Source: Sphingobacteriaceae bacterium (lineage in GTDB: Bacteria; Bacteroidota; Bacteroidia; B-17B0; Aurantibacillaceae). Taken from it: 64,000 nt of DNA. Below the pieces are notes generated by a model. The model saw only the letters and a list, made by a program, of their open reading frames with translations. It was not told the DNA's origin and did not search any database. This document shows positions 2,341 through 25,950 of the stretch, in pieces (position 1 is the first letter of the stretch; the number at the start of each line of letters is the position of its first letter). The stretch lies in the NCBI GenBank assembly GCA_947480015.1, contig CANKBS010000002.1, forward strand, positions 124,001 through 188,000, in the 5' to 3' direction. The position numbers were made by a program, and so were the translations under genes.

Positions 2341-2403
2341 ACCGGAATGAAAGGGTTTTTGTGTGTATTTAGATTTCTATAGCTCTTTTGTTCCGGTTTT
2401 TTT
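2341..2403 (+). ncRNA. Candidate small RNA hairpin 1 with T-run
   Basis: Bases 2341-2355 pair with 2383-2397 in an unbroken 15-bp stem (three G-U pairs), with a 27-base loop, followed at once by a T-run to 2403. It has the form of a rho-independent terminator, but no gene on this strand ends upstream within 1.9 kb; the upstream gene runs the other way. It therefore more likely ends an unannotated transcript started between 2046 and 2340, or is itself a structured small RNA. The loop contains GGGTTTTTGTGTG, nearly repeated in the next hairpin. Confidence 0.5.
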
Positions 2404-2463
2404 ATTTTATCAGCCATTAAACTTTTTCGAATTAGAAGTGTCTTATAACAAATCGAAAAAAAT

Positions 2464-2555
2464 GCCGAAAGTTGGAGTCTTATGTGCTTAGGGGTTTTGT
2501 GTGTTCTAATTAATTAAGCATGTACTTCCATCACTCCAACCTTTCGGCTTTTTTT
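2464..2555 (+). ncRNA. Candidate small RNA hairpin 2 with T-run
   Basis: Bases 2464-2478 pair with 2533-2548 (15 bp, one bulged C), and after an internal loop 2481-2490 pair with 2515-2524 (10 bp). The terminal loop contains GGGGTTTTGTGTG, close to the loop of hairpin 1. A seven-T run follows (2549-2555). It ends 16 bases before the glycosyltransferase ATG, so it could act as an attenuator for that gene or terminate a separate small RNA. No protein-coding gene on the same strand lies just upstream. Confidence 0.5.
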
Positions 2556-2571
2556 GGCACTTTTTTCACGA

Positions 2572-10850: not shown

Positions 10851-11699
10851 TTAATGTAATTCAAATTTTAAACCAAGAAATAATTCGTTGTTTAGTTCGT
10901 ATACAAATGTATTATATGATTTGGCACTGTTGTATTCGTACTCAACACCCAAAAACACGCCTTTAAACTTTTCTATGGATAACCAGGCGGAAGCTTGGAT
11001 CACAGTTTGATTGGAAGGTAAGACCAAGCGCCCCATACCTGTACCTGATAATTTTATTTTTTTGGTCACATTCCATTCTTGAGTGGTAAATTCATAACCT
11101 AAAACATAATCGGGATACACACGAGAAATCACAGAAACCCGTTTAAAAATAAAATTATCATAGGTAGTAAATTGTGGGCCTAAACTTAAGTATTCATGTC
11201 CGGTTACACTTCCTGCCTCTCCGCCAAGTTGAAACATTCTAAAACCATAGTACAATTCGGTATACATCAACAAATCTTTCATGTCGCGGCCACCTTCATA
11301 ATGCGTGTTGGCATCCGCAAAAAAACGGGCACCTACAATAAATTTCTCAGAACTGCTATGGTTGTGATAGTCAAACATGGCCTCATTCTTAATTACAGGG
11401 TCGTTGGGCACAGTAATATTAAAGGGGTACATCTCTAATTCGGTTTCAAGATCTTCGTGTTTAACGGGTTCTTTACCATCTACCTTGGCTGGTGATAAAT
11501 GTAAATCAGCCATTTCGGGACCCCCAGCATTCGTTTGCGCGGTTAATTGAACTGCGCCGAAAAACAAAATAAAACCAACTGCCACAATGGTTAATTTATT
11601 CACCGTTGTTTTAAAATCTCCAACATGCTTTTTTGCCATAAAATGGGATAAAACCTCACTGCCAGTAGGTTTAAGTGTATTAAAACAGGAAGACGTCAT
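10851..11699 (-). CDS. Predicted outer membrane beta-barrel protein
   Basis: I do not recognise a named family. The ATG at 11699 gives 282 residues; another at 11639 (MAKKHVGDF) gives a tighter signal peptide, with VGFILFFGAVQLTAQ. After a short linker the protein alternates aromatic and polar residues (FIVGARFFADANTHYEG, YGFRMFQLGGEAG, VLGYEFTTQEW), typical of barrel strands, and ends in LFLGLKFELH. It is last in the minus-strand redox island, but a terminator at 11943-11973 separates it from the cytochrome gene, so it probably has its own promoter. It may serve the same pathway as a porin or anchor; this is inference. Confidence 0.7.
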   Translation of the reverse strand: MTSSCFNTLKPTGSEVLSHFMAKKHVGDFKTTVNKLTIVAVGFILFFGAVQLTAQTNAGGPEMADLHLSPAKVDGKEPVKHEDLETELEMYPFNITVPNDPVIKNEAMFDYHNHSSSEKFIVGARFFADANTHYEGGRDMKDLLMYTELYYGFRMFQLGGEAGSVTGHEYLSLGPQFTTYDNFIFKRVSVISRVYPDYVLGYEFTTQEWNVTKKIKLSGTGMGRLVLPSNQTVIQASAWLSIEKFKGVFLGVEYEYNSAKSYNTFVYELNNELFLGLKFELH

Positions 11700-11942
11700 A
11701 GTTATTTTTTTTGTTTGTTGTGCCGGCTTTTGCAGATGATGAATGCGCGGCATGAACAGAAAATTCAGCTACAAATTTTAAACTAAATACGCAACTTTTT
11801 AATGACTTCCGTCAGGAAAGAACATGACTCTTATTTGTTGAAAATGCACTTAGGGCAGGGACGCCTAACTATTGGCAAACGGCAATAGCTTATTAAGACT
11901 TATTTTATTTATATAAAAGAGACTTAGAATTCCGGCAAAAAA

Positions 11943-11973
11943 AAACGTTGAGATAAAAAATACCTCAACGTTT
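11943..11973 (-). terminator. Rho-independent terminator after the cytochrome gene
   Basis: Bases 11943-11952 pair with 11964-11973 in a perfect 10-bp stem with an 11-base loop; on the minus strand a T-run follows. It lies 20 bases past the cytochrome c stop and closes the four-gene Fe-S/NrfD operon. Confidence 0.8.
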
Positions 11974-11992
11974 ATTAAATTAAATGACAAGC

Positions 11993-12418
11993 TTATTTAG
12001 CCAATGTGCGCATGAAGTTAACAATGCTCCAGATTTCTTCATCATCAGTGATTTTTTTCTTAAAGGATGGCATATCATCTCTACCTTCTTTAATTTTATA
12101 GAATAATTCGCCATCTGTTGCAGAGGTAATGTCTTTACTGAAATCGCCACATGATGTATCCAATTCTTTTGATTTAGGACCATCACCCAATCCTTTAGCA
12201 CCATGGCAAGATTTGCAATGTTTCATAAACAAAGTTTTACCGGCTGCTGTAGTTTCATCACTTTTCGCTACCGGGTTTTTTGTTTTTTTAGAAGCATCCG
12301 GTGCATTCCACGGCTTCTTTTTGTCATCCTGAAATTTGCTGAACGACATGGTCATTAAGGCTAAAACAAACAACATTGATCCTAACATGAGGAACTTTCT
12401 TTTTGATACGGTTTTCAT
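11993..12418 (-). CDS. Class I c-type cytochrome, membrane-anchored or secreted
   Basis: A monoheme cytochrome c of 141 residues. The heme site CKSCH is at Cys68, Cys71 and His72, and the distal ligand is probably Met116 in DDMPSF. An N-terminal hydrophobic segment (MLGSMLFVLALMTMSF) is either an uncleaved anchor or a signal peptide; a charged linker follows. It would shuttle electrons in the periplasm. It is the last gene of the run Fe-S protein, NrfD, Ig-like protein, cytochrome, with 58 bases after the preceding gene, and a strong terminator follows. It is the natural electron partner for the NrfD module. Confidence 0.92.
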   Translation of the reverse strand: MKTVSKRKFLMLGSMLFVLALMTMSFSKFQDDKKKPWNAPDASKKTKNPVAKSDETTAAGKTLFMKHCKSCHGAKGLGDGPKSKELDTSCGDFSKDITSATDGELFYKIKEGRDDMPSFKKKITDDEEIWSIVNFMRTLAK

Positions 12419-12476
12419 AAGATTAAATTATTAGGTTATTATTAGATTTTTATTTATTATGTTCAAAATTACATGT

Positions 12477-13388
12477 TTATCGCTGTTTTCTAATTCTTAG
12501 TAATAAAATCACTAAATAAGAAATGGTGCCCCAAATAAGTATGATGAGTGATACAGTCACTACCACTAGAATCACAGGTGCGTTATGTCCCGACGACCAA
12601 AGGGTACGTTGACTCAGCTTATTTTCGCGAGGTAAAATATTCCAGGGAATATCCTGACTCACCTCAACAATGCCATCATTTTCTTGATCTTCGTAACGTG
12701 CCATAATGGTGATGCTTTTATTGGCATTACCAGGCAAATCGGCCGGTAAAACACCCGACACTAAACCATCCGCATCGGTCGTTAAATTATCTTCGCCAAA
12801 AGGTAAAGCACCAAACGCACGTTTAACCAAAAGTTTCATCTCTGTTTCAGGTACAGGAACCATGCCAGAATCTTGCATTTTACAAAGTTTAGCATTTACC
12901 GTAGTTAATGAATCTTTAGCAAAGGCCAGTTTAATAAACATATCGTTAACAGTAATTTCCTCTTGTGTATCCTCATATTTAGGATCGGAACCTATACTGG
13001 CGATAAAATTAAAGCTATGCACATTGGCTTTTAACGTATTAAAATTATCGGGGAACATAAAAACACATTCGCCTTCATCGTCGGTAACCAGATTTCCCAT
13101 CCAGCCATCGTTGCTTACTTTGTCGAATTTTTTTACTTCACCCAAATACAGATTAACAATGATATTCCCAACCGGAATAAACTTTTTTTCTTCCTTATAA
13201 GAAACAGCCACTTTAACCGTTTTTACACCATTGTGAATCTTATAACTCAGTTTTATTGTAGGAGATGTTTTCTCAGCAGCAGCCGGTTTATCGGCATATG
13301 CACGCGGACTGAGAAAGAAGAAAAGACCCAAAGCAAGCATGAGTTGCAGTGATCTTTTTGATTTCAGATATTTAAAGAATGTTGTCAT
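12477..13388 (-). CDS. Ig-like periplasmic protein with C-terminal membrane anchor
   Basis: Family not recognised. The chosen ATG (MTTFFKYLKSKRS) at 13388 places a signal peptide at the start (LALGLFFFLSPRAYA); an upstream ATG at 13436 would only add a basic stretch. Two beta-sandwich-like segments follow (VGNIIVNLYLGEVKKF with DDEGECVFMFP; VPETEMKLLVKRAF with DADGLVSGVLP), resembling repeated carboxypeptidase-regulatory/Ig-type folds. A transmembrane helix (VILVVVTVSLIILIWG) and a basic tail end the protein, so the bulk is periplasmic. It sits between the NrfD and cytochrome genes and may hold the complex together. No heme or metal motif is seen. Confidence 0.75.
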   Translation of the reverse strand: MTTFFKYLKSKRSLQLMLALGLFFFLSPRAYADKPAAAEKTSPTIKLSYKIHNGVKTVKVAVSYKEEKKFIPVGNIIVNLYLGEVKKFDKVSNDGWMGNLVTDDEGECVFMFPDNFNTLKANVHSFNFIASIGSDPKYEDTQEEITVNDMFIKLAFAKDSLTTVNAKLCKMQDSGMVPVPETEMKLLVKRAFGALPFGEDNLTTDADGLVSGVLPADLPGNANKSITIMARYEDQENDGIVEVSQDIPWNILPRENKLSQRTLWSSGHNAPVILVVVTVSLIILIWGTISYLVILLLRIRKQR

Positions 13389-13458
13389 AATTAATTTCCT
13401 TTTAATTGTTTTTTTGAATTGGATGTTCCGTTTCAATCAATACTATTTTTAAACCGGA

Positions 13459-14829
13459 TTATTCCTTTTCGTTTAAGTGTTCATAAATGGTATCATGCGG
13501 CACACCGCGTTCTTCAGCTAATTCCCAAATTGAAATGATTGGGAAATAACGGATAAATAAAGTAATCACCAATAAAGCGCCGGCTAAGGATGCACCGGTT
13601 ATTGACCATTCGGCAAACGTTGCTGAATAATGTTTAGACGCTTCGGGAATTTGTTGCAAAGGTAAAAATGGGTGCAACATGGTTGGAATTACAATGAGGT
13701 AACGTTTGAACCAAGCACCAATAATCACAAAAACTGCCATAATAAAAATAGGTACAGGCTTACGACCTTTAGGAAATAACAATACCAGAATTGGAATAAT
13801 CATCCCAAAAATCTGAACCATCCAGAACATAGGCGCATAATGGCCCACAAAAAGTTCTTTTAAATGTTCGCCTTCATCCCCTTTCATTTTGTAACCCGGA
13901 ATAAAATATTCGTTTACCGTAAAATACAAATACACAAATGAAAGCAATACAAGCATACGACCCATTCTGTCGAAATGTTTATCGGTAATGTATTCGTCAT
14001 AACGGTTATAGAACTTACGGATGATAAACATACCGGCAATTACCGCTGCAGCTCCAACCATAAAAGCACCGGCTACAAAATAAGCACCAAAGTTAGTACT
14101 GTCCCAACCCGGACGGTAAGTGGTAGCAAATAACCATGAAGTTACCGTGTGAATACTTAAGGCCACCGGAATAATTAACACAGATAAAATCTTAATGGCT
14201 TTTACCACAATTTCATATTGTGCTTTTTTATTAGTCCAGCCAAAAGATAAGATTTTGTACATCTTATGTTGCCATTTTGGAATATTGGTCATTCTGTCTC
14301 TGCAGAAAGCTATACCAGGTAATAGCGGAAAAATAAGGAAGAGTAAACTAATGGTCATGTAGGTCATTACCACAATAACGTCCCACACAATGGGCGATTG
14401 TATACGACCATGCAGAAACATGTTTAAGATCCTATCCGGACGACCCATATCAACGATGATGATGAGGCCGGCGAACATGATGCCGGAAACCGCAATAATT
14501 TCAGAGATACGGGTAATTGGGGCACGCCAGCTAACATTCAATAAATTTAAAATGGCTGTGATGAGGGAACCCACCAAACTAACAGCCACAAAAAACACAA
14601 AATTAGAAATGTAGATACCCCACGACACCGTGTCGCTAAGGCCGGTTACAGTTAAACCCAGTTTCAATTGCCAAAAATAATTGTATAATCCAATAGCAAT
14701 AACCAAACATAAAATTGTAACCCATAATTTACCTGCCATTCCAAATTTTTGAGGAAGAAGGTCTTCGTTATAACGGTGAAGCATTTCAATGGCTTCTTGT
14801 TCGTTTACCGGTTTTATTATTTCTTTCAT
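13459..14829 (-). CDS. NrfD/PsrC-like quinol-interacting membrane subunit
   Basis: A polytopic membrane protein of 456 residues with about ten hydrophobic segments, matching the long NrfD-type subunits (DsrP, ActC, PsrC-like) that exchange electrons between quinone and an associated Fe-S protein. Supporting phrases: VTGLSDTVSWGIYI and ISNFVFF near the first helices, VSWRAPITRISE, and the IHTVTSWLFATTYRPGW loop, which is characteristic of ActC/PsrC-like proteins. The start ATG lies 19 bases after the Fe-S gene's stop, so translation is likely coupled. No molybdopterin catalytic subunit or multiheme cytochrome follows, so it is not a standard alternative complex III or polysulfide reductase. 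Confidence 0.9.
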   Translation of the reverse strand: MKEIIKPVNEQEAIEMLHRYNEDLLPQKFGMAGKLWVTILCLVIAIGLYNYFWQLKLGLTVTGLSDTVSWGIYISNFVFFVAVSLVGSLITAILNLLNVSWRAPITRISEIIAVSGIMFAGLIIIVDMGRPDRILNMFLHGRIQSPIVWDVIVVMTYMTISLLFLIFPLLPGIAFCRDRMTNIPKWQHKMYKILSFGWTNKKAQYEIVVKAIKILSVLIIPVALSIHTVTSWLFATTYRPGWDSTNFGAYFVAGAFMVGAAAVIAGMFIIRKFYNRYDEYITDKHFDRMGRMLVLLSFVYLYFTVNEYFIPGYKMKGDEGEHLKELFVGHYAPMFWMVQIFGMIIPILVLLFPKGRKPVPIFIMAVFVIIGAWFKRYLIVIPTMLHPFLPLQQIPEASKHYSATFAEWSITGASLAGALLVITLFIRYFPIISIWELAEERGVPHDTIYEHLNEKE

Positions 14830-14848
14830 AATACCAATTTAAAAATTA

Positions 14849-15805
14849 TCAACTATGTTTCTCTTCTCCTTCAGGTTCTGCATCCTTAAATGGAAACAAA
14901 CGATTTGAAGCAGGTAAATAATATACACTTGGCTCGGTGCCTAATGCTTCCATGTAACGGTATCCCGCTTTATCTTTCAACAACTGTCTGAAACGAACGG
15001 TTTCATCACCATTACAAACGGAATCTTCATTCGCATCACCGAAATAATAAACACCATTCGGACAAGCAGTAACACAGTGCGGTAATTTTCCGAGTTTTAA
15101 CATATCGGGACAAAAATCGCATTTTTCAACCGTACCTTTTTTACGAGGATTGGATGTTTCAGGAGAATACTCATTACATGCACGGTTATCGGGTTGTTTT
15201 GGTTCATCCCAGTTAAAGGTACGGGTTGAATATGGACAAGCAGCCATACAGAAACGACAGCCTATGCAACGCTCGTTATCAATAAGTACTAAGCCATCAC
15301 TTCTTTTGAAGGTGGCATCAACCGGACAAACTTTAACACAGGGTGGTTTATCGCAGTGCAAACAAGGTTTTGGCATCCAATACGGAGAGGCTTCCTCATT
15401 ATCTTGCATTTTATATACTTTCAACCATTTATCTTGTTCAGGTAAGAAGTGATGCTTCTGACACGATTTTTGGCATTTTAAAGCGTTTTTACAACGTGAT
15501 AAGTCGATGACCATCACATATTTTTTTCCGGGAATGCCCTGACGTGATTCATCGCGGCTGGCACCACAATGATCATGTTCTTTAATATGCGTTGAATCAA
15601 CTTCCACCAATTTCCCATCGGGCGTCATAACCTTAATTTTGGTGCCCGATTCTTTTGGTTCAGGATCTTTTTCATCGGACAAAACTTTTTGTAGTCCCCC
15701 TCCGGCGATAGTAAGACCGGCTGTAAGAATACCAAGCTTCAGAAATTTTCTTCTTCCGGAAGCACTGTCATCCTTTTTTTCTAAGTCTTCAGATTTTTGT
15801 GACAT
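14849..15805 (-). CDS. Tat-exported 4Fe-4S ferredoxin-type electron transfer subunit
   Basis: A DsrO/PsrB-like iron-sulfur protein of 318 residues with four cysteine clusters: CKNALKCQKSCQ, CLHCDKPPCVKVCP, CIGCRFCMAACP, and the split set CNEYSP...CDFCPDM...CVTACP. A twin-arginine signal (GRRKFLKLGILTAG) predicts folding in the cytoplasm and export by Tat, so the protein acts on the periplasmic face. It would pass electrons to or from the NrfD subunit. First gene of the minus-strand operon; its 5' region holds an FNR-like palindrome at 16016-16037. The catalytic subunit usually found beside such proteins is absent. Confidence 0.92.
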   Translation of the reverse strand: MSQKSEDLEKKDDSASGRRKFLKLGILTAGLTIAGGGLQKVLSDEKDPEPKESGTKIKVMTPDGKLVEVDSTHIKEHDHCGASRDESRQGIPGKKYVMVIDLSRCKNALKCQKSCQKHHFLPEQDKWLKVYKMQDNEEASPYWMPKPCLHCDKPPCVKVCPVDATFKRSDGLVLIDNERCIGCRFCMAACPYSTRTFNWDEPKQPDNRACNEYSPETSNPRKKGTVEKCDFCPDMLKLGKLPHCVTACPNGVYYFGDANEDSVCNGDETVRFRQLLKDKAGYRYMEALGTEPSVYYLPASNRLFPFKDAEPEGEEKHS

Positions 15806-16015
15806 AATGTTTGAAATTATTTTGTTATAAATTGTTTTTTACCTGACTATTCACGCGACTAAAAGTTGTGTTAACTAGAATGAATCATCTAATTTCACTC
15901 AAACCATCAGCATTTAAAGGGTTCAGGAAGATTTTTAAAGGAACGTTGTTATATTCTTTTTCCTTAACAAAGTAAGGCTTAGTTCAACAAAGGTTGCATG
16001 ACCGGAGTCAAGACC

Positions 16016-16037
16016 CTTTATGATTTTAATCATAAAG
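16016..16037. promoter_or_regulatory. FNR/CRP-like palindromic operator
   Basis: A perfect 9-bp inverted repeat CTTTATGAT-N4-ATCATAAAG. The core ATGAT-N4-ATCAT differs from the FNR consensus TTGAT-N4-ATCAA at one position per half. It lies about 210 bases upstream of the Fe-S protein start. Binding by an FNR/CRP-type regulator is inferred from geometry only. Confidence 0.5.
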
Positions 16038-16134
16038 CAAAAATAAATTTTGCCAACAACTAATTTTATTTAAAGCCTTTAACGATAGAGTTTTTAAGTC
16101 TTATACGTATTTAAAATGAATGCCATTAAAAACA

Positions 16135-16167
16135 AAAAACTCCACCTGGATAGCAGATGGAGTTTTT
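16135..16167 (-). terminator. Terminator after DUF5777-like gene A
   Basis: Stem 16135-16148 with 16154-16167 (one mismatch), flanked by A/T runs, 20 bases past the stop of the gene ending at 16188. Confidence 0.75.
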
Positions 16168-16187
16168 ATTTTACATTAAGAATTCAA

Positions 16188-17096
16188 TTAGCGTTTGGTG
16201 ATGTTAAATCCAATTAAGAATTGTCCTTTGCTATAATCGTTATGATTATAAAAATTATTGGTTTGAGGAACAATGCTATGGTAATTAGTAATGAAGAATT
16301 GGAAGGTGTGTGTAGCTGTTCCAACTTGCAATCCAACACTTACATTCGGATTTGGATTATCGGTTGTATGTTGTGTGATTGGTTGATCGTAGTTAACCAC
16401 TAACGACATTTTATCGGAGAAAGCATAACATCCACTAAATGCGAGAGCGATGTGAGAGTTGCTCATACGTGGTTTAATGCTTCCGTCTGAAGTGACATAA
16501 CCTTCTACATTATTATACCATGATAAACTTGGCGCCACTTGAATAGAAAGATCTTTGGAGATCTTACGGGCGATAAGAATTTGGTGGAAATAAGAAAGAC
16601 GATCCACATCATTCACAAAATTACCGGCTTTCGGGCGGGTATCAACCGACATATTTCCGTAGTAGGTTACACTCACCGGAGAACCGCCTATTTTATTTTG
16701 TTTAATAAGGGCGTATTTTAAATTACCATCCCATTGCATGCGTTCTTTGGTGAAACCAAAACCTACTTGCAAGTTGTTAATAGGCGTGTAATTAAAACCC
16801 AAACGAATGTTGGATGAGGCATACAGACCATAGAAATCGGAATAACCATTGTTAACCGTTCCAAATCTGTGTTGCATCACAAACTCGAATACACCTTTTA
16901 CCGGAACCATCACCGTTTGATTATCGATGATGAGATTACCTATGAAGGTTTTTTTAACCACCTCGGGTTTTGAGCCCGTGCTGGCCGCTGCTGTGCTATC
17001 TTGTGCTTGCGTGGAATTTGCAATAACAAGGAATAAAATAAACAGACCGAATCGTTGTAGTCCGTATTTTATAGAGTTACTTGAATTATTTTTCAT
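16188..17096 (-). CDS. DUF5777-like outer membrane barrel protein, copy A
   Basis: A predicted beta-barrel of 302 residues with a signal peptide (ILFLVIANSTQAQ). It resembles the DUF5777 group. Shared landmarks with copy B (19433-20311) are the NNQTxMxPxK-like start, VMQHRFGTVN, SSNIRLGFNYTP, NLQVGFGFTK, and VSVTYYGNMSVDTRP, in the same order. It is the third gene of module A, 13 bases after the small cytochrome gene, which suggests one transcript. Function unknown; a role as a pore or shell for the neighbouring lipid-anchored cytochromes is inference only. A terminator follows at 16135-16167. Confidence 0.85.
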   Translation of the reverse strand: MKNNSSNSIKYGLQRFGLFILFLVIANSTQAQDSTAAASTGSKPEVVKKTFIGNLIIDNQTVMVPVKGVFEFVMQHRFGTVNNGYSDFYGLYASSNIRLGFNYTPINNLQVGFGFTKERMQWDGNLKYALIKQNKIGGSPVSVTYYGNMSVDTRPKAGNFVNDVDRLSYFHQILIARKISKDLSIQVAPSLSWYNNVEGYVTSDGSIKPRMSNSHIALAFSGCYAFSDKMSLVVNYDQPITQHTTDNPNPNVSVGLQVGTATHTFQFFITNYHSIVPQTNNFYNHNDYSKGQFLIGFNITKR

Positions 17097-17109
17097 ACTG
17101 GTTTTTTTT

Positions 17110-17511
17110 TTAATTATTTAGTGCTCCTTGTTTAATCCATGCGAGTACAAGATTATTTACATTAGACGGGTTAGTGGCAGATCCCGGAGGCATTGGTGTG
17201 GTTTTTTTACCGATTAACCAAAGGTACAAGTTACTGTTTTCAGGTGCACTCATATCTATATAACTACCATTCACAAGGGAGTTATAAGCTTTTTCGGCGC
17301 TTAAATCAGGACTTCTTCCTCCGGCAACGTGACAGCCACTGATGCTGCAATTAGCAGTAAAAATGGGCTGAATGTCATTGGCGTAACTTACAGGAGCTGT
17401 TACTTCCTCCTTGGTGTTTAAGGGCACAGTGGCTACCTTATAACAACTCTGTAAGCTAATTATGGGAGCAGCTAGTACCGCCATAACTATTACAATTTTT
17501 TTTATTGACAT
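17110..17511 (-). CDS. Small CX4CH cytochrome c lipoprotein, copy A
   Basis: A 133-residue lipoprotein. The signal ends in SLQSC (lipid Cys23). The predicted heme site is CSISGCH at Cys55, Cys60 and His61: four residues between the cysteines instead of two. The neighbourhood IQPIFTANC and the later TTPMPPGS with LVLAWIKQGA match small cytochromes of planctomycete/Bacteroidota type. The CX4CH spacing is conserved in copy B, so it is unlikely to be a sequencing error. It is the second gene of module A, between the larger heme lipoprotein and the barrel, and would transfer electrons at the membrane surface. Confidence 0.85.
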   Translation of the reverse strand: MSIKKIVIVMAVLAAPIISLQSCYKVATVPLNTKEEVTAPVSYANDIQPIFTANCSISGCHVAGGRSPDLSAEKAYNSLVNGSYIDMSAPENSNLYLWLIGKKTTPMPPGSATNPSNVNNLVLAWIKQGALNN

Positions 17512-17563
17512 GATTTCTATTTATTAAATCATTAGGGTTATTTAATTTATTTAATTACAGCAA

Positions 17564-18934
17564 CTATTTTTGAAATTTCAATAATAGATTTGGTTTAATA
17601 CCATGTTGGTAATTAGATTTATTAAATATGGCCATGCCAAAAGGTTGGTCATCTAAAGAAGTGAAATCAATATCTTGTTTTTTAGTATCCGGAGTTTTTA
17701 ATAAACGTTTCCATTCAATTGTCCAACCTGAACCGGTATAATTAACTTGACAAGAAATATCGGCACGACCTGCAGTTAAAGCACCTACTGAAATGTAACT
17801 TGGGATAATTTTTGCTCCATCAAGACCAGTTGGCGTTGCATCTAAACGTTGGTAATCGGTACCTACATTTGGATCAACGGTGGTGTTATCAGCTAAAGTA
17901 AGCACACCCATGGTATCTAGTTTGGTAATTAATTTTGCAGTTCCGGCAGTGATATCAGCTTGTGCGATATAATAATAATCTGTTTTATTTGGAACGATGT
18001 ATTTAGGAGCACTTACAACCACAGTTTTTCCTGACACAGTTAAAGTAAAGTTCTGCGTATTATTACTTGTGCCTGTAGTAGATACATTAGATGAATAGGC
18101 AGGAGCATATGGATAAGATGTGCTAGAACCTGTAACCACTTGATCATCTTGGTGACGACCATTACCGCTACCACCTACTAAACTGGTGATTGATGGACCA
18201 CCTGCCCAATCTTGATACTCATCAGAGAATTGATTAAAAAGTGGATCTCTGCCAATTTTTAACCACCACATATCAATTTTTTCGTTTGAACCGTTGGTAT
18301 AGTGATTAGCACTTTGATTTGCTTTCATCGTTGCAGGTGTCGTTGTTGGATCTAGATACGGTTGAAACATGTGACAACTTGCATAACAAGTTTGTGTAGC
18401 AAATTTGGTTACCGAGTTATCGATATTCCATAAAAATGCTAATTTATCTTCACCCCAACCTTCGCGGGTTAAATTACCGTTTACGTCAAAAGTTTTTGCA
18501 CTTGGCTCTTGTGCCCAACGTTTTGTTTTTGAATCAAAATACCAAGGTGATACTTGTACACTCTTATTTTGATCGGCATATTCGGCCAAGAAATAAATGG
18601 AAGTGCCATCATACATAGAACGGAGGGTTACAGGATATTGAGTGCCAATATAACCGTAAAACATACCATTACCTGCATCAGGAACCTGCGTGGTGGTATT
18701 TAATTTAGTAGCATTATCCCAAACACTTTCAGCCTGACCATCAATGGTAGGTGCTGCAGAAGGGTCAATTTTAGCGCAAATTAAATTAGCCTGATTGGTT
18801 ACTTCAGGTGGAAGAGATGTTTTTGGCAGATCGAGTGTTTGGTTGGTTTTAGTGCAACTGGCAACGACCAACATTACTGTAACACCGACTACCCCTAAGG
18901 TAGTTACTGCGGTTTTTAAGGATTTCGTTTTCAT
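17564..18934 (-). CDS. Ethylbenzene-dehydrogenase-gamma-like heme lipoprotein, copy A
   Basis: A 456-residue lipoprotein (LVVASC, lipid Cys27) with a region like the heme-binding gamma subunit of ethylbenzene and dimethylsulfide dehydrogenases (PF09459-type). Landmarks: IDGQAESVWDNATKL, the DGTSIYFLAEYADQ strand, and a heme-type site CYASCH at Cys183, Cys187 and His188, with three residues between the cysteines (CX3CH). KIDMWWLKIGRDP follows, as in relatives. The C terminus has a WTIEWKRLLKTPD strand and FGMAIFNKSNYQHG. Copy B shares this order. The catalytic molybdenum partner is not encoded nearby. First gene of module A; a CGGAC palindrome lies upstream. Confidence 0.85.
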   Translation of the reverse strand: MKTKSLKTAVTTLGVVGVTVMLVVASCTKTNQTLDLPKTSLPPEVTNQANLICAKIDPSAAPTIDGQAESVWDNATKLNTTTQVPDAGNGMFYGYIGTQYPVTLRSMYDGTSIYFLAEYADQNKSVQVSPWYFDSKTKRWAQEPSAKTFDVNGNLTREGWGEDKLAFLWNIDNSVTKFATQTCYASCHMFQPYLDPTTTPATMKANQSANHYTNGSNEKIDMWWLKIGRDPLFNQFSDEYQDWAGGPSITSLVGGSGNGRHQDDQVVTGSSTSYPYAPAYSSNVSTTGTSNNTQNFTLTVSGKTVVVSAPKYIVPNKTDYYYIAQADITAGTAKLITKLDTMGVLTLADNTTVDPNVGTDYQRLDATPTGLDGAKIIPSYISVGALTAGRADISCQVNYTGSGWTIEWKRLLKTPDTKKQDIDFTSLDDQPFGMAIFNKSNYQHGIKPNLLLKFQK

Positions 18935-19097
18935 AATTGTTTTTATTTGTTTGATTTTGTTAAGGATGTTTTAATCTTATTACTATGCATTGGGATGTAT
19001 ACTATAACGGGTGTAAAGTTAGGCAGAGATAATTTTTTCATGGCTGATTATTGTCAGCTAATTTTTGCTTTTTTTATGACTATTATCTGATTTTAAA

Positions 19098-19115
19098 TCG
19101 GACCTTTTTGTCCGA
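19098..19115. promoter_or_regulatory. Inverted repeat operator TCGGAC-N6-GTCCGA, site A
   Basis: A perfect 6-bp inverted repeat with a 6-base spacer, about 164 bases upstream of heme lipoprotein copy A. The same core with the same spacer occurs at 23711-23734, upstream of the YceI-like gene. The 5-N6-5 geometry equals that of CRP-family sites. Recurrence at two promoters of one island supports a real operator. Confidence 0.6.
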
Positions 19116-19355
19116 ATTAAACGATAATTTGTCTAAATAAGCCCTATCTTTCAATCACACAGCGGTTTAAATAACTTAAAAGATCAAATAAGTGCAATAC
19201 ATAAGTATAAGCCTGTAAAAAAAATATTAGGTAATAACAACGTTTTATTTCAAACAACTAGAAACATACGATATTTTGCCACTAATCAGCTGCAGAAAAC
19301 AATCTAAATTTTTAAATAGTTTCATGTCAATTGGATGGATTAGATACAAAAAAAA

Positions 19356-19386
19356 GGTAAGCCTCAGATGAAATCTGTAGCTTACC
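19356..19386 (-). terminator. Terminator after module B
   Basis: GGTAAGC (19356-19362) pairs with GCTTACC (19380-19386), with further pairing inside; on the minus strand a run of eight T residues follows. It closes the module B transcript. Confidence 0.75.
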
Positions 19387-19432
19387 CACTTAAGAGGTGT
19401 AATGCGACGTTTTTAGGGCAAAATACTCTGAA

Positions 19433-20311
19433 TTAATAATTCCACAACCTCGTCATGTTAAATCCAATACAAAATGCTTTTTTGGTGAAGTCATTGGCAT
19501 TATAAAGCATGTTATGTTGGTTAATGATAGCTTGTCCTGAACTGATAAAGATCTGAAACACGTGATTTGAAGTAGCCGCTTCAATACCAATACCAATGTT
19601 AGGTTTCACTGTAATAACCTTCGAATCCTGCTTAGTGGTATTATAGTCGTATTCAAAAATAACGGCTAAGGCATCGCTTAATTTAAAACGACCATTAAAT
19701 GAAACACCAATGTTATTATGCTTAACCAGCGAATCAACCATGTTAAAGTGAGAGAAACTTGGTGAAATTTGTAGAGACAATTTAGAACCGAATTTACGGG
19801 CAATAATCAACTGATGAAAATACGACATGCGATCAACATTAGATGGGTATACATTGCTGCGGCAGTCGATGGCTGCGTTACCATAATAGGTGATGCTAAC
19901 CGGAATACTTCCTGAACGTGTTTGTTTGATAATGGCGTATTTCCAGGTAAGATCTTGCAGTTTATTATTTTTAGTGGTACCAAAACCCAACTGAAGTTTA
20001 TTGGATAAGGAAAAATTAAATCCAATACGGATATTTGATGGCGCATAAATACCACCCAAATCAAATTCCTTAGAGTTTAATAAACCAAATCTATGTTGGA
20101 TAACCATTTCAAGGGTATGTTTAGTAGGTATCATCGCTGTTTGGTTATTCAGCAAATAGCCACTTTCAAACATATCCTTAACCGGGCGTTTATCTTTTTT
20201 AGGTTTTTCGGGTGCCGCCGCAGTGGAATCGCTTTGCGCCTGAACGAACGTTGTGTTTAGTTGCACAATGGCAAGTGCTATCACTACTTTACTTATAAAA
20301 CGTGTTTTCAT
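19433..20311 (-). CDS. DUF5777-like outer membrane barrel protein, copy B
   Basis: A paralogue of the barrel at 16188-17096, about 292 residues. The ATG at 20311 (MKTRFISKVVIALAIVQ) gives a compact signal peptide ending in FVQAQ; an upstream ATG at 20332 would add seven residues. Landmarks shared with copy A, in order: NNQTAMIPTKHTLEMVIQHR, SNIRIGFNFS, KLQLGFGTTK, VSITYYGNAAIDCR, and FHQLIIARKFGSKLSLQISP. Ends in CIGFNMTRLWNY, with an aromatic last residue. Third gene of module B; the terminator at 19356 follows. Role unknown. Confidence 0.85.
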   Translation of the reverse strand: MKTRFISKVVIALAIVQLNTTFVQAQSDSTAAAPEKPKKDKRPVKDMFESGYLLNNQTAMIPTKHTLEMVIQHRFGLLNSKEFDLGGIYAPSNIRIGFNFSLSNKLQLGFGTTKNNKLQDLTWKYAIIKQTRSGSIPVSITYYGNAAIDCRSNVYPSNVDRMSYFHQLIIARKFGSKLSLQISPSFSHFNMVDSLVKHNNIGVSFNGRFKLSDALAVIFEYDYNTTKQDSKVITVKPNIGIGIEAATSNHVFQIFISSGQAIINQHNMLYNANDFTKKAFCIGFNMTRLWNY

Positions 20312-20354
20312 AATTATCATGTGGTTCTTCATGGTGTTTAACTAATTTGTGATT

Positions 20355-20720
20355 CTATTTATCTTTGGCTCCTTGTTTAATCCAAAACAATACCTTGCTA
20401 ATATCGCTTGCCGGTAATTTGCTTGGAGGCATGTTAGTGGTTATTTTAACGTAAAGTACACTGGTGGTAGCATTTAAGGTGTCTACCAAACCACCGTCGA
20501 TAAGCGCACTGTAAGCTTTTCCATCACTTAAATTGGGTGATACGGCGCCGGAGTGACAACCACTCACCGCACATTTAGCTGTAAACATGGGTTGAATTTC
20601 ACTGGTAAAACTAACCGGTGTATTTGGATCAACAACCGGAGCTTTAAATATTTTCTTTTCGCAAGAACTGATAAAAACAGTTGCCAAAACGAATAGTGTT
20701 ATGATTGTTAGGATTCTCAT
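20355..20720 (-). CDS. Small CX4CH cytochrome c lipoprotein, copy B
   Basis: A 121-residue lipoprotein (FISSC, lipid Cys20) with the heme-type site CAVSGCH at Cys50, Cys55 and His56, again CX4CH. Like copy A it has the phrase EIQPMFTAKC before the site, NMPPSKLP (a likely distal Met region) and VLFWIKQGAKDK at the end. Its start codon overlaps the stop of the heme lipoprotein gene upstream by four bases, a strong sign of translational coupling. It is the second gene of module B. Electron partner is probably the heme lipoprotein encoded just before it. Confidence 0.85.
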   Translation of the reverse strand: MRILTIITLFVLATVFISSCEKKIFKAPVVDPNTPVSFTSEIQPMFTAKCAVSGCHSGAVSPNLSDGKAYSALIDGGLVDTLNATTSVLYVKITTNMPPSKLPASDISKVLFWIKQGAKDK

Positions 20721-22102
20721 GGTTGCTTAGGTTTAAAGGTGAGAATTTGTTTAAGTGAACCAATGTGGTTTTTACTATCACCGTTCATTAAGGCTATTCC
20801 AAAAGGATACGATTTTCCTTCGGGTGATGTAAATTGAATGTCGTCGCCATTGCCATTAGAAAGGGTACGAACGAATACAACCTGATATAACGTATGTGGA
20901 TTAACCGTATTAATTCTGGCCTTGGCCACATTAGAAACCGACCACACATCGGCACAACTGCCACTCGGCGCGTGCAAATAGGTGCCCGGAATTGAGCCCA
21001 AGCCTTTAATATAAGCAATCAAATCATCCACGCTTCCTGCAGGAACCTGTGCCCAATAGGTGACACCGGTATGCAAGTCGTTGGCCGCAAAACTTTTTAT
21101 TCCTGCGCGCGAGTACTTACGGGCAAAACCGATGGCAGCAAAGGCTGTCGCTTCGCCACTAGGACCGGTTCCACCGCCATCTTCACCATGACAGTGCGCA
21201 CAACCATATGCCGCATGGGTATACACTTTTTTTCCTTTTGTTGGATCACCTAAATAAGGCGTTTTATTTAAAATATAATAAGCCGGGTCAATTAATAAGG
21301 TTTTACCATCAGGTCTGATAACACTCTGGTCGGTACCATCCCATTCGTAAGCCGGTCCTGAACGTGGATTGGAAAGCACTTTGAAATTACTTTCTGTCAT
21401 GCCAACACCTCCGTCATTAATCAAACCGCTGGTGGCGTCTGTTACCATGTCTTTTGCGTAACCAAGTGCATCGGAGTTACTAAGATCCCACGACCAAATA
21501 TCAACTAAGCCACTGGCCGGACGCATTTGATTGTTGTGACATGATGCGGCGCATCCTTTATCGATAAAGGTACCGGCTGAACTCGTGGCGTTTCCGGAAG
21601 CATCAAAGGCCATAGCAAATTTATCTGAGTTGCCTTGTGCTGTCCAACCGCCCGTTGAATCACTTTTGGTTGGCAAAGGATCGGGAGGTCCCAATAACAT
21701 AGAAGCTGCAAAGGAGGGATTAATATCCGAATCGATCCATTCGGCGTAAATATATAGTTTGTTATTATCGTAGGCGGCTTTCATAACTACTTTTGGATCA
21801 TTTCCTTTATTAAAGGAACTTAAACCGGCAAAGGTATTGGTCATGTTTAAAAAACCGTCAGAGTAAAGAGCATTTTTGTTGAGATCGGCCACAGGTACCC
21901 TCAGGTAATCAGCGCTTTTCCAATAAGCATCCGTTAAGGTCATTGGCGCACTGCTCACAAAACTGGCCTCGAGAGTGCTCGTTTCTACAGGCGCTTTAGG
22001 TAGTGGCGGTTTTGCAAAGTACTTATCTTCACAGGCAAAAGCCAGTAGCGAAAAGACTATTACAAAAAACAGGAGCGCTTGGTGCCGTATAAAGTTTTTC
22101 AT
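20717..22102 (-). CDS. Ethylbenzene-dehydrogenase-gamma-like lipoprotein with extra cytochrome c domain, copy B
   Basis: A 461-residue lipoprotein (LLAFAC, lipid Cys24) related to copy A. It has the strand NNKLYIYAEWIDSD, the CX3CH site CAASCH at Cys184, Cys188 and His189, and VDIWSWDLSNSDALG. Unlike copy A, it carries a canonical cytochrome c site CAHCH at Cys301, Cys304 and His305 in a GCAHCHGEDGGG setting. So it probably binds two c-type hemes, or one plus the b-type heme known in gamma subunits. The C terminus (SYPFGIALMNGDSKNHIG) matches that of copy A. First gene of module B, and overlapping the small cytochrome gene. Confidence 0.85.
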   Translation of the reverse strand: MKNFIRHQALLFFVIVFSLLAFACEDKYFAKPPLPKAPVETSTLEASFVSSAPMTLTDAYWKSADYLRVPVADLNKNALYSDGFLNMTNTFAGLSSFNKGNDPKVVMKAAYDNNKLYIYAEWIDSDINPSFAASMLLGPPDPLPTKSDSTGGWTAQGNSDKFAMAFDASGNATSSAGTFIDKGCAASCHNNQMRPASGLVDIWSWDLSNSDALGYAKDMVTDATSGLINDGGVGMTESNFKVLSNPRSGPAYEWDGTDQSVIRPDGKTLLIDPAYYILNKTPYLGDPTKGKKVYTHAAYGCAHCHGEDGGGTGPSGEATAFAAIGFARKYSRAGIKSFAANDLHTGVTYWAQVPAGSVDDLIAYIKGLGSIPGTYLHAPSGSCADVWSVSNVAKARINTVNPHTLYQVVFVRTLSNGNGDDIQFTSPEGKSYPFGIALMNGDSKNHIGSLKQILTFKPKQP

Positions 22103-22221
22103 AATTGAGAATTGAATGGTTTAGTTTTTTTCATTTTCAGCACAGGGTTCAACGTCACGGGTGTTAGGGTATTTAAAAATAAATAGTTTTTGGGAAATTT
22201 AGAAATTCTGAAAAACCGTTT

Positions 22222-22258
22222 ATAAACAGAGCGATTAAAATTAAATCGCTCTGTTTAT
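22222..22258 (-). terminator. Strong terminator hairpin
   Basis: A perfect 15-bp stem (22222-22236 with 22244-22258) and a 7-base loop, 45 bases past the stop of the small lipoprotein gene. It separates the YceI/lipoprotein transcript from module B. Confidence 0.75.
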
Positions 22259-22303
22259 TTATTAATCTGAATCCTTAACAGATTAATTCGGGTTTGACTC
22301 CTA

Positions 22304-22669
22304 TTATTGCACTTTAAGATCAGCCGTTACTGTACCTTTTTTATCGCCAATAGTAACGTGTGCACCACCGGACGTGAATTTAGTACCCGTTGCATTGGTA
22401 TAATCGGCAGTTACAAAATAATCACCTCGGTATAAAGCGTTAAATGTGTAATTACCACTTTCATCGGTTACGGTAGACGCATCATAAGCTGTGGTTGCTG
22501 CTGATGCATTAAAAGCAATGTGAACAATTGCATTGGTTACAGCAACACCATTAAGCGTTACGGTTCCTTTTATTTTGGCAGCCCCGCCAAAATCGTTTTC
22601 TTTTTTACAAGATGTCAGCGCAAGCAGAAATACTGTTAAAAAAATGGCTGTTATTTTTAATGTTTTCAT
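22304..22669 (-). CDS. Small carboxypeptidase-regulatory-like lipoprotein
   Basis: A 121-residue lipoprotein: signal MKTLKITAIFLTVFLLALTS then Cys21 followed by KKEND, so anchored in the membrane, probably sorted outward. One beta-sandwich domain (IKGTVTLNGVAVTNAIVHI, then DESGNYTFNALYRGDYFV) matches the carboxypeptidase-regulatory-like fold. It sits 42 bases downstream of the YceI-like gene and is probably co-transcribed with it. It has no heme or metal site. Its role in the redox island is unknown; a structural or binding role at the surface would fit the fold. Confidence 0.8.
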   Translation of the reverse strand: MKTLKITAIFLTVFLLALTSCKKENDFGGAAKIKGTVTLNGVAVTNAIVHIAFNASAATTAYDASTVTDESGNYTFNALYRGDYFVTADYTNATGTKFTSGGAHVTIGDKKGTVTADLKVQ

Positions 22670-22711
22670 GTTAGTTGGTTTTATGTTTAAATATTACAAT
22701 TTGTTTTTTGC

Positions 22712-23470
22712 TTAATACGTGTTGTTAACCATGTTACAATCTATTCGAATCGTTACCAGATCATCAATGGATGTTGAGTTCACGCCAAATATAGAGTTAG
22801 CATTAATTCCGAACTGTCCAAATAAACCAGCTCTGTCTGTTTTCTTACCTGTAGTAGCATTGGTTATTGTTGAAATTCCGGTATAGGTTAAAGGCACTTC
22901 AACTGCTTTGGTAACACCTCTAAATATGAAGTTACCTTTTAACAAGAAACCATTGCCATAACGTTCGCAAGAGGTACTTTTGAACCAGGCTGTATCGGTT
23001 GTTGCTCTAGGTTGTAATACAACAGTTGGTGTTTTACTCAAGGTGTCAAATTTAATGCCCATGTAACCCGGACCACATTTGCCATACCCATCACGACCCG
23101 GCTCACCGGTATTAAAGGTTGATAATTGTACCCATGAATTAACAGTAGTATTGGCTGGATTTGCCTGATCAAAATTTACTTTTAATTCAAACATGTTAAA
23201 ACGGCCGGTTAAAGGAGCACCATTTGCATAGTATTTGGTTTCCCACATCACATTACTGTGTGCTTTATCTACTTTCCATTTACCGGCAACCGTGTAAGAT
23301 GTTGGAGGATACCCACCAATTCTGGCATCGATCACATCAGATCCTGTGGCGGCACTGGCAGTAAGTAATTCTACTTTGTTGTCTTTTTTGCAACTTGTTA
23401 CAAACACAATTGTCGTAACTACAATACCAAGGATTGTGGTTACGAGTCTTTTTACGGTTTTTGTTTTCAT
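22712..23470 (-). CDS. YceI-like lipoprotein
   Basis: A lipoprotein of 252 residues with a YceI-like lipocalin domain. The ATG at 23470 (MKTKTVKRLV) puts the lipobox at FVTSC; longer frames reaching 23593 lack a good signal. Domain landmarks: WKVDKAHSNVMWETKY at the start, GRFNMFELKVNFDQ, a substitution of the usual helix by GRDGYGKCGPGYMGIKFD, and FRGVTKAVEVPLTYTG. YceI proteins bind isoprenoids such as polyprenols or quinones in a beta-barrel pocket (family knowledge), which fits a redox island. A perfect CGGAC palindrome lies at 23711-23734 upstream. Two cysteines in SCERYGNG and KCGPG may pair. Confidence 0.85.
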   Translation of the reverse strand: MKTKTVKRLVTTILGIVVTTIVFVTSCKKDNKVELLTASAATGSDVIDARIGGYPPTSYTVAGKWKVDKAHSNVMWETKYYANGAPLTGRFNMFELKVNFDQANPANTTVNSWVQLSTFNTGEPGRDGYGKCGPGYMGIKFDTLSKTPTVVLQPRATTDTAWFKSTSCERYGNGFLLKGNFIFRGVTKAVEVPLTYTGISTITNATTGKKTDRAGLFGQFGINANSIFGVNSTSIDDLVTIRIDCNMVNNTY

Positions 23471-23710
23471 AATTGATTTTATTAGGTTTATTTTTTTATT
23501 AATTAAAGATGTTCTATTCGGAAGTAAAGGTCGTGTGCTTTTCATTGAAATAACCTGATATAAGTCACAAACTTTGATGATTGACATCAGCACTTAGAAT
23601 CTATCTAAATAGCTTGAATCCACTGTGAATGGTGCTATTGAGCCAAATTTTCGTATGGATAATTTATAAAAAATTAAATGTTAAAATTTATTTTATAGAT
23701 TTTTTTGTTT

Positions 23711-23734
23711 AATTCGGACAATTTAGTCCGAATT
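23711..23734. promoter_or_regulatory. Inverted repeat operator AATTCGGAC-N6-GTCCGAATT, site B
   Basis: A perfect 9-bp inverted repeat with a 6-base spacer, 241 bases upstream of the YceI-like start. Core and spacer length match the site at 19098-19115. Both precede minus-strand transcripts of the same island. A CRP/FNR-family regulator is a reasonable guess from the geometry; none is encoded in the window. Confidence 0.65.
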
Positions 23735-23844: not shown

Positions 23845-24225
23845 TTACTCGTCGACATAAAAAACAGGTACTAACTCAGCCCTTTCTTCATCACTAAACA
23901 TGCGCGACCGGATCATAAATCGTTTTCCGCTGGGAATCTCGATTGAAAAACTGGACCCCCTACCCTGCACCACATCTAAGGTAAGCTCGGTATGTTGCCA
24001 GTATTCAAACTGATCCTTGCTCATCCAGAACTCTACGTCTTCAATATGCCCCAGCCCAACATCACCCGACCCCATTTTAAAATCACCCTTCACAAAACAC
24101 ATGGGAGAAGAGCCATCACAACAGCCACCACTTTGATGAAAGATCAGATCCCCAAACTCCGTTTTTAACTGATGAATGAGATCTAGTGCGGCTTCGCTGG
24201 CCAAAATGCGTTTTACGTTTTTCAT
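23845..24225 (-). CDS. DUF779 domain protein
   Basis: A 126-residue cytoplasmic protein of the DUF779 family. Diagnostic phrases are FGDLIFHQSGGCCDGSSPMC and IEDVEFWMSKDQFEYWQH. The CC pair and nearby Cys may bind a metal or act in redox chemistry; the family has no firm function that I know. It lies 69 bases downstream of the aldehyde dehydrogenase gene on the same strand, an association common for this family, so it is probably an accessory factor of that enzyme. A bidirectional-looking terminator follows at 23796. Confidence 0.9.
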   Translation of the reverse strand: MKNVKRILASEAALDLIHQLKTEFGDLIFHQSGGCCDGSSPMCFVKGDFKMGSGDVGLGHIEDVEFWMSKDQFEYWQHTELTLDVVQGRGSSFSIEIPSGKRFMIRSRMFSDEERAELVPVFYVDE

Positions 24226-24294
24226 ACCATTAAAAAAGGCTGTTCCAAAATTACAACAGGGAACAGCCTTTATTTATTTTATAGTGTTAATTGA

Positions 24295-25800: not shown

Positions 25801-25924
25801 GTTGTGTTAAATTAGTTAGTGCAAGGTGAAAATCGAAATTCCTAAAGCCCTTCAAAATCCTCCCAAGTAGTAGCACAATTTTCCCAATTTTTAAGAATGC
25901 GCATCATTTAGGATTTCGTTTCGC

Positions 25925-25932
25925 TATATTTG
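25925..25932 (+). promoter_or_regulatory. Promoter -7 box TATATTTG for araC-like gene
   Basis: TATATTTG is an exact TAnnTTTG match, 18 bases before the ATG at 25951, implying a leader of about ten bases. It supports that start over the TTG at 25930. Confidence 0.5.
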
Positions 25933-25950
25933 ATAAACCGAATTAGCAGC

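Follow-up and report, generated by a model that had tools for sequence, protein, structure and literature searches.

A recurrent Bacteroidota gene island joins an ActC-like NrfD core to haem lipoproteins and outer-membrane barrels, with a possible place in nitrous oxide respiration

Introduction

One of the described respiratory systems that come closest to the gene island treated here is alternative complex III (ACIII), which is encoded by ActABCDEF. The island is situated in the genome of a Sphingobacteriaceae bacterium (GenBank assembly GCA_947480015.1, contig CANKBS010000002.1, positions 124,001 to 188,000; this whole stretch of 64,000 nucleotides is called the window), and it consists of 12 open reading frames (ORFs), all on the minus strand, at window positions 11993-23593 (ORF list). 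Like ACIII, the island encodes an ActC-like NrfD protein, an Fe-S protein predicted to hold four clusters (FeS) and a monohaem cytochrome c (cytC), which makes a quinol:cytochrome c chemistry plausible. In contrast to ACIII, the molybdopterin-like half of ActB is absent, and FeS represents the Fe-S part only. Also absent are the pentahaem ActA, ActD and ActF; no multihaem protein and only one NrfD are encoded. The island contains a protein with Ig-like domains (IgM) instead, as well as linked outer-membrane modules, and of the residues His139, Asp169 and Asp253 of ActC only Asp169 is kept. Membership in ACIII was rejected because its defining features, i.e., the molybdopterin-like domain, ActA/ActF and the quinol-site residues, were tested and found to be lacking or, for the residues, mostly changed. 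The island is thus a variant of the Fe-S/NrfD respiratory systems that stands outside ACIII.

A pair of an Fe-S protein and an NrfD protein is also shared with DsrOP, QrcCD and PsrBC, and DsrO is the best NCBIfam match of FeS (188.8 bits, cut-off 200). However, the respective partners DsrMK, QrcAB or PsrA are missing. Membership in DsrMKJOP or Qrc was rejected, since this match is below the cut-off and NrfD reaches 133.8 bits versus a cut-off of 350 for DsrP. A preliminary description of the island, made from the sequence alone, had likened parts of it to DsrOP; by a profile comparison with the PDB, NrfD is nearer to ActC of ACIII than to DsrP.

The outer-membrane modules have other relatives. 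Haem gamma subunits of the EB_dh type contain a Met/Lys-ligated haem b. The two larger haem lipoproteins of the island (EB1 and EB2) share the EB_dh domain with the gamma subunit of ethylbenzene dehydrogenase and with NxrC (PF09459, 69.6 and 49.3 bits, cut-off 33.3), but they are lipoproteins with an invariant CX3CH motif and an invariant H444, and neither an alpha nor a beta subunit accompanies them. The preliminary description had proposed a likeness to the gamma subunit; the domain and the NxrC match agree with it, whereas the haem ligands may differ, CX3CH being invariant and no Met or Lys being conserved. In porin-cytochrome conduits of the MtrCAB type, the cytochromes are multihaem proteins and the barrel in the outer membrane is large. 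The island resembles these conduits and Cyc2 in having an outer-membrane barrel beside haem lipoproteins and, occasionally, a surface-sorted cytochrome. It differs from them in that each protein has a single haem motif, or two in the case of EB1, of the CX3CH or CX4CH type, and in its 12-strand NanC-like barrel, with barrel and cytochrome on separate chains. A group of small cytochrome, YceI and DUF5777 genes in Bacteroidota has the same barrel and cytochrome families and a YceI partner, but no FeS-NrfD-IgM core was present in the six loci read, and its cytochrome often has CX2CH.

A literature search, which left most subscription papers and preprints outside, found no name or description for the gene set, in line with the preliminary statement that no named system is known to have this composition, and DUF5777 was not found in any paper within the same scope. 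The parts of the island are of known kinds, while the way in which they are combined, their haem motifs and their link to regulation seem, as far as the literature was searched, to be new.

Results

The analysis covered the gene content and its synteny, the haem motifs, the folds as predicted by models, an operator and the co-occurrence with nosZ. In the direction of transcription the gene order is YceI, CarboxypepD_reg-like, EB1-scyt1-bar1, EB2-scyt2-bar2 and FeS-NrfD-IgM-cytC, the last group being called the core (Table 1). All 12 minus-strand genes of the preliminary description are present, and their families are largely as it had stated (Pfam, NCBIfam).

To analyze how far this arrangement is conserved, species genomes were scanned with an alignment of NrfD proteins, and the best 80 of 189 loci were kept. 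Thirty-nine of these have at least 8 kb on each side of NrfD (full loci); neighbors were counted within 9 kb, and genes were labeled by their best BLAST match to proteins of the window and of relatives. FeS and cytC were found in 39/39 full loci, IgM in 38/39, and a small cytochrome together with a DUF5777 barrel in 37/39. Core and modules are thus linked in 37 of the 39 full loci. The preliminary description had suggested a search for the set in Bacteroidota neighborhoods, and the wholly unlinked occurrence in relatives that would have spoken against it was not found. The island is almost certainly a conserved electron-transfer unit. The third module member is a lipoprotein that is either EB_dh/NxrC-like with CX3CH or a YceI protein: in the full loci, EB2 types adjoin 24 times, YceI types 21 times, EB1 types and cytochromes of the type IX secretion system (T9SS) type 3 times each, with overlaps, and four loci have none.

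With one exception, the 80 loci carry the title Bacteroidota or uncultured bacterium. The exception (L096, contig CALPWK020000201.1) is a contig of a metagenome-assembled genome (MAG) labeled Comamonas, which pairs with L097 deep among Bacteroidota in the NrfD tree and is probably misbinned. Beyond Bacteroidota, IgM was looked for only via the NrfD scan. Named strains with core and modules are Niastella vici (L071), Mucilaginibacter frigoritolerans (L081) and Ginsengibacter hankyongi (L093). In a sample of 395 genomes of the phylum, the core is present in 10 (NrfD at least 539 bits, neighborhoods checked); two further genomes, G243 and G471, in which NrfD reaches about 345 bits, were not counted, since FeS and NrfD are there without IgM and without a barrel. 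A search with the Ig-like protein was positive in 6/100 genomes, including the own one, and in 3/40 genomes of the same genus, and therefore the set is regarded as accessory. Two relatives of the same genus, L014 (genome G017) and L011 (G009), carry the full set of families, and in genomes of other taxonomic families the core is accompanied by modules. The gene order is identical in L014, although its NrfD is only 38% identical, and also in L018, whereas the two modules are swapped in L011 and L019. In the NrfD tree, which was calculated with a quick method and has several long branches, most island proteins form a supported group (94 rows, support 97*), separate from ActC and ActF of ACIII. 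The NrfD of L014 and the second NrfDs of L028, L031/L013 and L017 fall outside this group, though they are parts of FeS-NrfD-IgM sets. Near such sets, L013 encodes at 354-3617 a protein of 653 amino acids that matches no Pfam family and, next to it, a cytochrome with 14 haems and an MtrC/F-like match; the two may be a separate porin-cytochrome system.

Within the core, NrfD is ActC-like. In a comparison of the NrfD profile with the PDB, four ActC chains were matched at E-values from 1.3e-51 to 7.6e-59 and ActF at 3.5e-8, with nothing else at 1e-3. Roles in the quinol site have been assigned to His139, Asp169 and Asp253 of Rhodothermus marinus ActC, and Arg395 is its gate arginine, according to PMC8076601; the residues at Asp169 and Arg395 are retained in NrfD, as read by eye from the alignment. 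Fifteen Cys residues of FeS are invariant in all 93 homologs with more than 45% identity. Judged by sequence, they would fit one [3Fe-4S] and three [4Fe-4S] clusters, the content given for ActB in that paper. In 44/80 loci the Fe-S gene has near it a gene for a short protein that resembles the N-terminal part of FeS, which is of the twin-arginine translocation (Tat) type (e.g., L081 7596-7970, homologs of N89); a twin-Arg-like motif occurs in 19/49 of these short proteins, and 84/93 Fe-S proteins retain their own. IgM matches no Pfam or NCBIfam family. Its AlphaFold2 model (pLDDT 89.6) has two Ig-like domains and a C-terminal membrane helix, and a fold search retrieved generic Ig-like matches alone (TM at most 0.30 on the query). 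CytC has CX2CH in 72/72 homologs. The genome contains an ACIII-like locus elsewhere (L122, read by eye), and therefore the core is additional.

The modules carry the haem motifs CX3CH and CX4CH. In the EB proteins, C183, C187, H188 and H444 are invariant in 49/49 sequences, and so are W140, D163, D221, W223, R410 and D421. Judged within these 49 sequences themselves, no column of Met or Lys other than M1 and K2 reaches 85% conservation. The EB profile matches NxrC (7b04_C) in the PDB at 5.8e-12, while the single EB2 sequence has no PDB match. All six EB1 homologs contain both CX3CH and CX2CH. In the small lipoproteins, CX4CH is found in 51/51 sequences of the scyt2 type, 12/14 of the scyt1 type (one has CX2CH, one both) and 9/9 of the cyt205 type, and all nine of the cyt396 type have two motifs each. 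In an alignment of 84 scyt homologs, CX4CH and CX2CH share one column, and therefore CX4CH looks like a two-residue insertion into a normal haem site. The best PDB match of the scyt profile is FoxE (1.9e-7), followed by hydrazine synthase alpha (3.3e-6) and cytochrome c6. The AlphaFold2 model of bar2 (pLDDT 92.3) is a barrel of 12 long strands, with the porin NanC as best PDB match (TM 0.47-0.70). His76 and His263 of bar2 are invariant in 62/62 DUF5777 proteins, and the barrel may hold a metal or a haem there. In three loci (L015, L016, L017) a CX2CH protein with a T9SS sorting domain is encoded inside the barrel module (in L017 the domain has 22.7 bits, under the cut-off of 27), and homologs of this protein are present in 8/80 loci.

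DUF5777 proteins are more widespread than the core, with matches over cut-off in 152/395 Bacteroidota genomes versus 10/395 for the core. In the core-less loci read, DUF5777 is accompanied by YceI and a small cytochrome. This group was seen in L102, L105, L107, L115, L116 and L118 and on contigs C6 and C35 of the own genome; it sometimes includes a tRNA_anti-like protein (named by eye), and the C35 copy (L101) has no cytochrome adjacent.

The preliminary description had found no catalytic subunit, and this holds: none of the 12 proteins matches a catalytic redox enzyme family (Pfam, NCBIfam), and no single catalytic subunit recurs near the island in the neighborhoods read. Among the 25 of 136 Pfam families listed for flanking proteins (106 of 132 chosen) there was no common enzyme; the listed families include RIC (ScdA_N and hemerythrin, 3 each), radical SAM (4), MFS (4) and others. 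Candidates are confined to single loci, namely a two-haem peroxidase-like protein (by eye; L022, L045, L046) and six-haem proteins (L108, L114). The latter (L108 5519-6601 in G198, L114 10646-11836 in G390) have a collagen-like start and open the cluster, each behind an operator copy. Neighboring Fic, RHS-repeat, SprB and MFS proteins were rejected as members because they occur at single loci only. Loss of a catalytic subunit during assembly was rejected as well, since many other genomes have an island composed in the same way. The only PF00384 match of the own genome is on another contig and, judged by eye from the protein and its neighbors, reads as an NAD-type formate dehydrogenase. As this is the sole match, a molybdenum nitrate reductase was not found in the genome.

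A palindromic operator of the Crp/Fnr type, TATGAY-N4-RTCATA, which the preliminary description does not mention, is located upstream of FeS; two further 14-base matches (ATGAY-N4-RTCAT) in the window are far off. Upstream regions of cluster genes contain TATGA-N6-TCATA in 24/229 cases versus 0.5 expected from shuffles. Upstream of other genes in these loci the 14-base form was found in 25/364 regions. It is present in 27/39 full loci, with 0.98 copies per intergenic kb inside clusters versus 0.23 outside (p = 2e-5), an enrichment that is not independent because the motif was discovered on largely the same loci. The classic FNR box TTGAT-N4-ATCAA was rejected for its small numbers, 2 regions versus 0.3 expected. 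Of the 16-base operator, the own genome contains five exact copies versus 2 for a reversed control. Besides the island, they precede a lipoprotein/receptor-like pair (haem uptake, by eye), a NorC-/NorB-like operon and a cytochrome-NosZ operon, and the fifth is inside an ORF. NosZ and RIC were assigned by NCBIfam, NorB and NorC were named by eye, and the NorB candidate has a weak NCBIfam match to ccoN (50 bits). A 604-amino acid protein without NCBIfam family (L132 18012-19826) is encoded by the first gene of this NorC-/NorB-like operon, behind an operator copy, and has a homolog (49%) near nosZ in G198.

Outside the own genome, 10 island genomes of high quality were compared. In 7 of them the 14-base operator is directly upstream of the nosZ-preceding cytochrome gene (nosCyt) and NosZ, in G181 it precedes a RIC gene that leads into the nosCyt-NosZ operon, and in G130 and G390 it is absent there. 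In total 14 nosZ loci were read; G490, G534, G514 and G538 had been chosen for visible sites and were therefore left out of the count of 10. A Crp/Fnr-family gene adjoins the nosZ-upstream site in 7/14 of these loci. Regulators with four Cys, the pattern of the oxygen-sensing FNR, are encoded near the island in six loci (L018, L021, L023, L029, L034, L067), and the FixK-like regulator near the nor/nos genes of the own genome has a single Cys. Taken together, the operator copies make it probable that the island belongs to a nos/nor (low-oxygen, N-oxide) regulon in this genome.

In the phylum sample, each of the 10 island genomes has NosZ over cut-off, versus 117/385 of the others (127/395 in total). 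Within the class the numbers are 9/9 versus 30/89 (p = 1.3e-4), p-values being optimistic since the sampled genomes share ancestry. In a larger set of 61 island genomes (11 sampled genomes plus the first 50 locus genomes in order, with 11 short-contig loci left out), 46 have NosZ over cut-off, including 11/11 of those known to be of high quality. In the own genome and in 14/14 nosZ loci read, a homolog of one and the same cytochrome precedes NosZ. Of the 61 island genomes, 8 have NirK over cut-off, and PF02239 matches are partial, with a best value of 31 bits, although 15/61 pass the cut-off of 25.5 bits. Because NirK is rare and PF02239 weak and partial, many carriers look, by their gene content, like N2O reducers without the nitrite-to-NO step.

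Table 1. Features of the island and its flanks in the window.
Feature	Position	Strand	Evidence and remarks
YceI-family lipoprotein	22712-23593	-	PF04264 9.8e-17; likely start about 23470 (internal ATG in listed ORF)
Small lipoprotein, CarboxypepD_reg-like	22304-22669	-	4.6e-6; 27.3 bits versus cut-off 32.3
Terminator-like stem	22222-22258		
EB1, EB_dh-type haem lipoprotein, CX3CH and extra cytochrome c CX2CH	20717-22102	-	PF09459 8.5e-13, PF13442 1.2e-4
scyt1, small lipoprotein cytochrome, CX4CH	20355-20720	-	no significant family; family profile matches FoxE and cytochrome c6 structures
bar1, DUF5777 outer-membrane barrel	19433-20332	-	PF19089 2e-71
EB2, EB_dh/NxrC-like lipoprotein, CX3CH	17564-18934	-	PF09459 5.5e-19
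scyt2, small lipoprotein cytochrome, CX4CH	17110-17511	-	no significant family; alignment with CX2CH homologs
bar2, DUF5777 barrel, 12 long strands in model	16188-17096	-	PF19089 8.8e-73
Terminator-like stem, 3' of bar2	16135-16167	-	
Crp/Fnr-type operator TATGATTTTAATCATA	16019-16034	.	upstream of core operon
FeS, Tat-type Fe-S protein, predicted four clusters, 318 amino acids	14849-15805	-	Pfam, NCBIfam
NrfD, ActC-like quinone-interacting membrane subunit	13459-14829	-	PF03916 1.7e-35
IgM, two Ig-like domains and C-terminal transmembrane helix	12477-13436	-	no family; likely start 13388 (internal ATG)
cytC, monohaem cytochrome c, CX2CH	11993-12418	-	PF13442 1.2e-12
Terminator-like stem, 3' of core operon	11943-11973	-	

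The terminator-like stems and gaps of 201, 498 and 382 bases suggest about four transcription units, i.e., YceI-CarboxypepD_reg, EB1-scyt1-bar1, EB2-scyt2-bar2 and FeS-NrfD-IgM-cytC; the scan yielded 14 stems versus 11.2 expected, so that the stems are weak evidence on their own. YceI homologs are found inside the cluster in L014, L018, L019 and L021, and homologs of the CarboxypepD_reg-like lipoprotein, with 55-72% identity, in L011, L014, L018 and L021. Downstream of the core lies an ORF without Pfam family (10851-11753), and its homolog in L011/L019 (55% identity) is in the corresponding position. On the other side, the island is flanked at 23845-26886 by genes for a DUF779 protein, an aldehyde dehydrogenase and a divergent AraC-type regulator.

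Discussion

We put the probability at roughly 45% that the island encodes a quinol-linked chain free of molybdenum enzymes, which is made at low oxygen within a Crp/Fnr-type N-oxide regulon. That electrons leave the quinol in the direction of the outer membrane is likewise a little short of an even chance. NrfD and the Fe-S protein would accept electrons from menaquinol, and the Fe-S protein would pass them to the monohaem cytC, for which IgM may serve as a dock. CytC would then reduce lipoprotein cytochromes in the outer membrane, i.e., the CX4CH-containing scyt and the CX3CH-containing EB proteins at the 12-strand DUF5777 barrel, provided that these motifs carry haem, and the lipoproteins would deliver the electrons to an acceptor that is located at the outer membrane or outside it. 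Expression would be expected at low oxygen in the presence of N-oxides. The preliminary description had proposed a chain from quinone to the cell surface or to an imported acceptor. The linked and conserved electron-transfer set and some features of the cell surface, such as the T9SS-sorted CX2CH proteins, agree with this proposal, while the direction of flow and the acceptor are what we infer.

Several observations weigh against this chain. In the core, two of the three residues of the ActC quinol site are altered, His139 to Asp127 and Asp253 to Leu233 (by eye), and therefore quinol oxidation is not assured. In addition, the Fe-S protein matches 6cz7_B, which we take to be ArrB, and PsrB (128 and 124 bits) above ActB (97 bits). 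The module is missing at 2/39 full loci (L026, L033), and, conversely, barrel modules occur without the core in many genomes. An acidic signal for the export of lipoproteins to the surface is absent from most of the lipoproteins (e.g., 3/49 scyt2 proteins have it, and 7/14 YceI_m proteins), and therefore they may face the periplasm. Furthermore, the 12-strand barrel of the model is small for a cytochrome conduit.

The regulatory link is also not uniform. The 14-base operator is present at the island in 4/10 island genomes of the phylum sample (G000, i.e., the own genome, G198, G390 and G477) and absent in G130, G181, G194, G221, G241 and G485; of the two relatives of the same genus, G017 has it and G009 does not. 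In the window, an exact 16-base copy is found at the core only, and sites with two mismatches are at chance level. In 36 of the 61 island genomes, which were used for this count, the 16-base pattern has 160 copies versus 61 for the reversed control, and therefore more than one third of the copies may be due to chance; G221 and G510 show no excess over the control. Lastly, 15/61 island genomes have no NosZ over cut-off, their completeness not being given.

A more far-reaching version of the proposed chain would be a molybdenum-free, quinol-linked outer-membrane conduit of single-haem CX3CH/CX4CH lipoproteins and a 12-strand barrel, tied to N2O/NO respiration, with electrons either exported to an extracellular acceptor or imported, e.g., from Fe(II), for N2O reduction. 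We regard this version as tentative, and its truth as doubtful.

The co-occurrence with nosZ invites a different explanation. The core might be a second quinol:cytochrome c oxidoreductase for low oxygen that feeds NosZ and NO reductase via periplasmic cytochromes, with the outer-membrane modules as accessories for uptake or storage. The operator shared with the nosZ and NorCB-like operons in this genome, the presence of nosZ in all island genomes of the phylum sample, the constant cytochrome in front of NosZ and the ActC-like core with its monohaem cytochrome would all fit such a role. However, the genome already has the ACIII-like locus, 117 of the 127 nosZ genomes in the sample do without an island, and the haem lipoprotein/barrel modules in 37/39 loci would be left unexplained. 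Therefore, it seems unlikely that this role accounts for the island.

Electrons might also flow inward, with outer-membrane cytochromes at the barrel oxidizing an external donor, e.g., Fe(II) or reduced humics, and supplying the periplasm for N2O reduction as well as the quinone pool. The closest solved relative of the scyt profile is FoxE, a protein of iron oxidation, T9SS-sorted haem proteins are encoded in three relatives, and several contigs stem, by their record titles, from lake, groundwater and permafrost MAGs. But the likeness to FoxE is one of the cytochrome c fold, with hydrazine synthase alpha as a neighboring match, and the carriers include named isolates that are not known as iron oxidizers, so that inward flow appears distinctly improbable. 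That the EB lipoproteins themselves are the catalytic subunits, as terminal haem reductases of a substrate, perhaps an N-oxide, imported via the barrel, is very improbable, because their invariant W140, D163, D221, W223, R410, D421 and H444 and the scarcity of NirK and of more than partial PF02239 matches in the carriers (15/61 pass that cut-off all the same) are opposed by an invariant His besides the CX3CH His, which suggests a six-coordinate electron-transfer haem, by 8/39 loci with YceI and no EB protein, and by the frequent lack of Nir in organisms with clade II nosZ.

The quinol-linked chain toward the outer membrane, if it exists, has consequences beyond this genome. Counts of cytochromes that are based on CXXCH alone miss proteins with CX3CH or CX4CH. 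The operator offers a direct test of expression. And nitrous oxide being a strong greenhouse gas, the Bacteroidota by which it is reduced would contain a recurring respiratory gene set that is undescribed in the literature searched, and their N2O reduction would be linked, in a way that can be tested, to redox reactions at the outer membrane.

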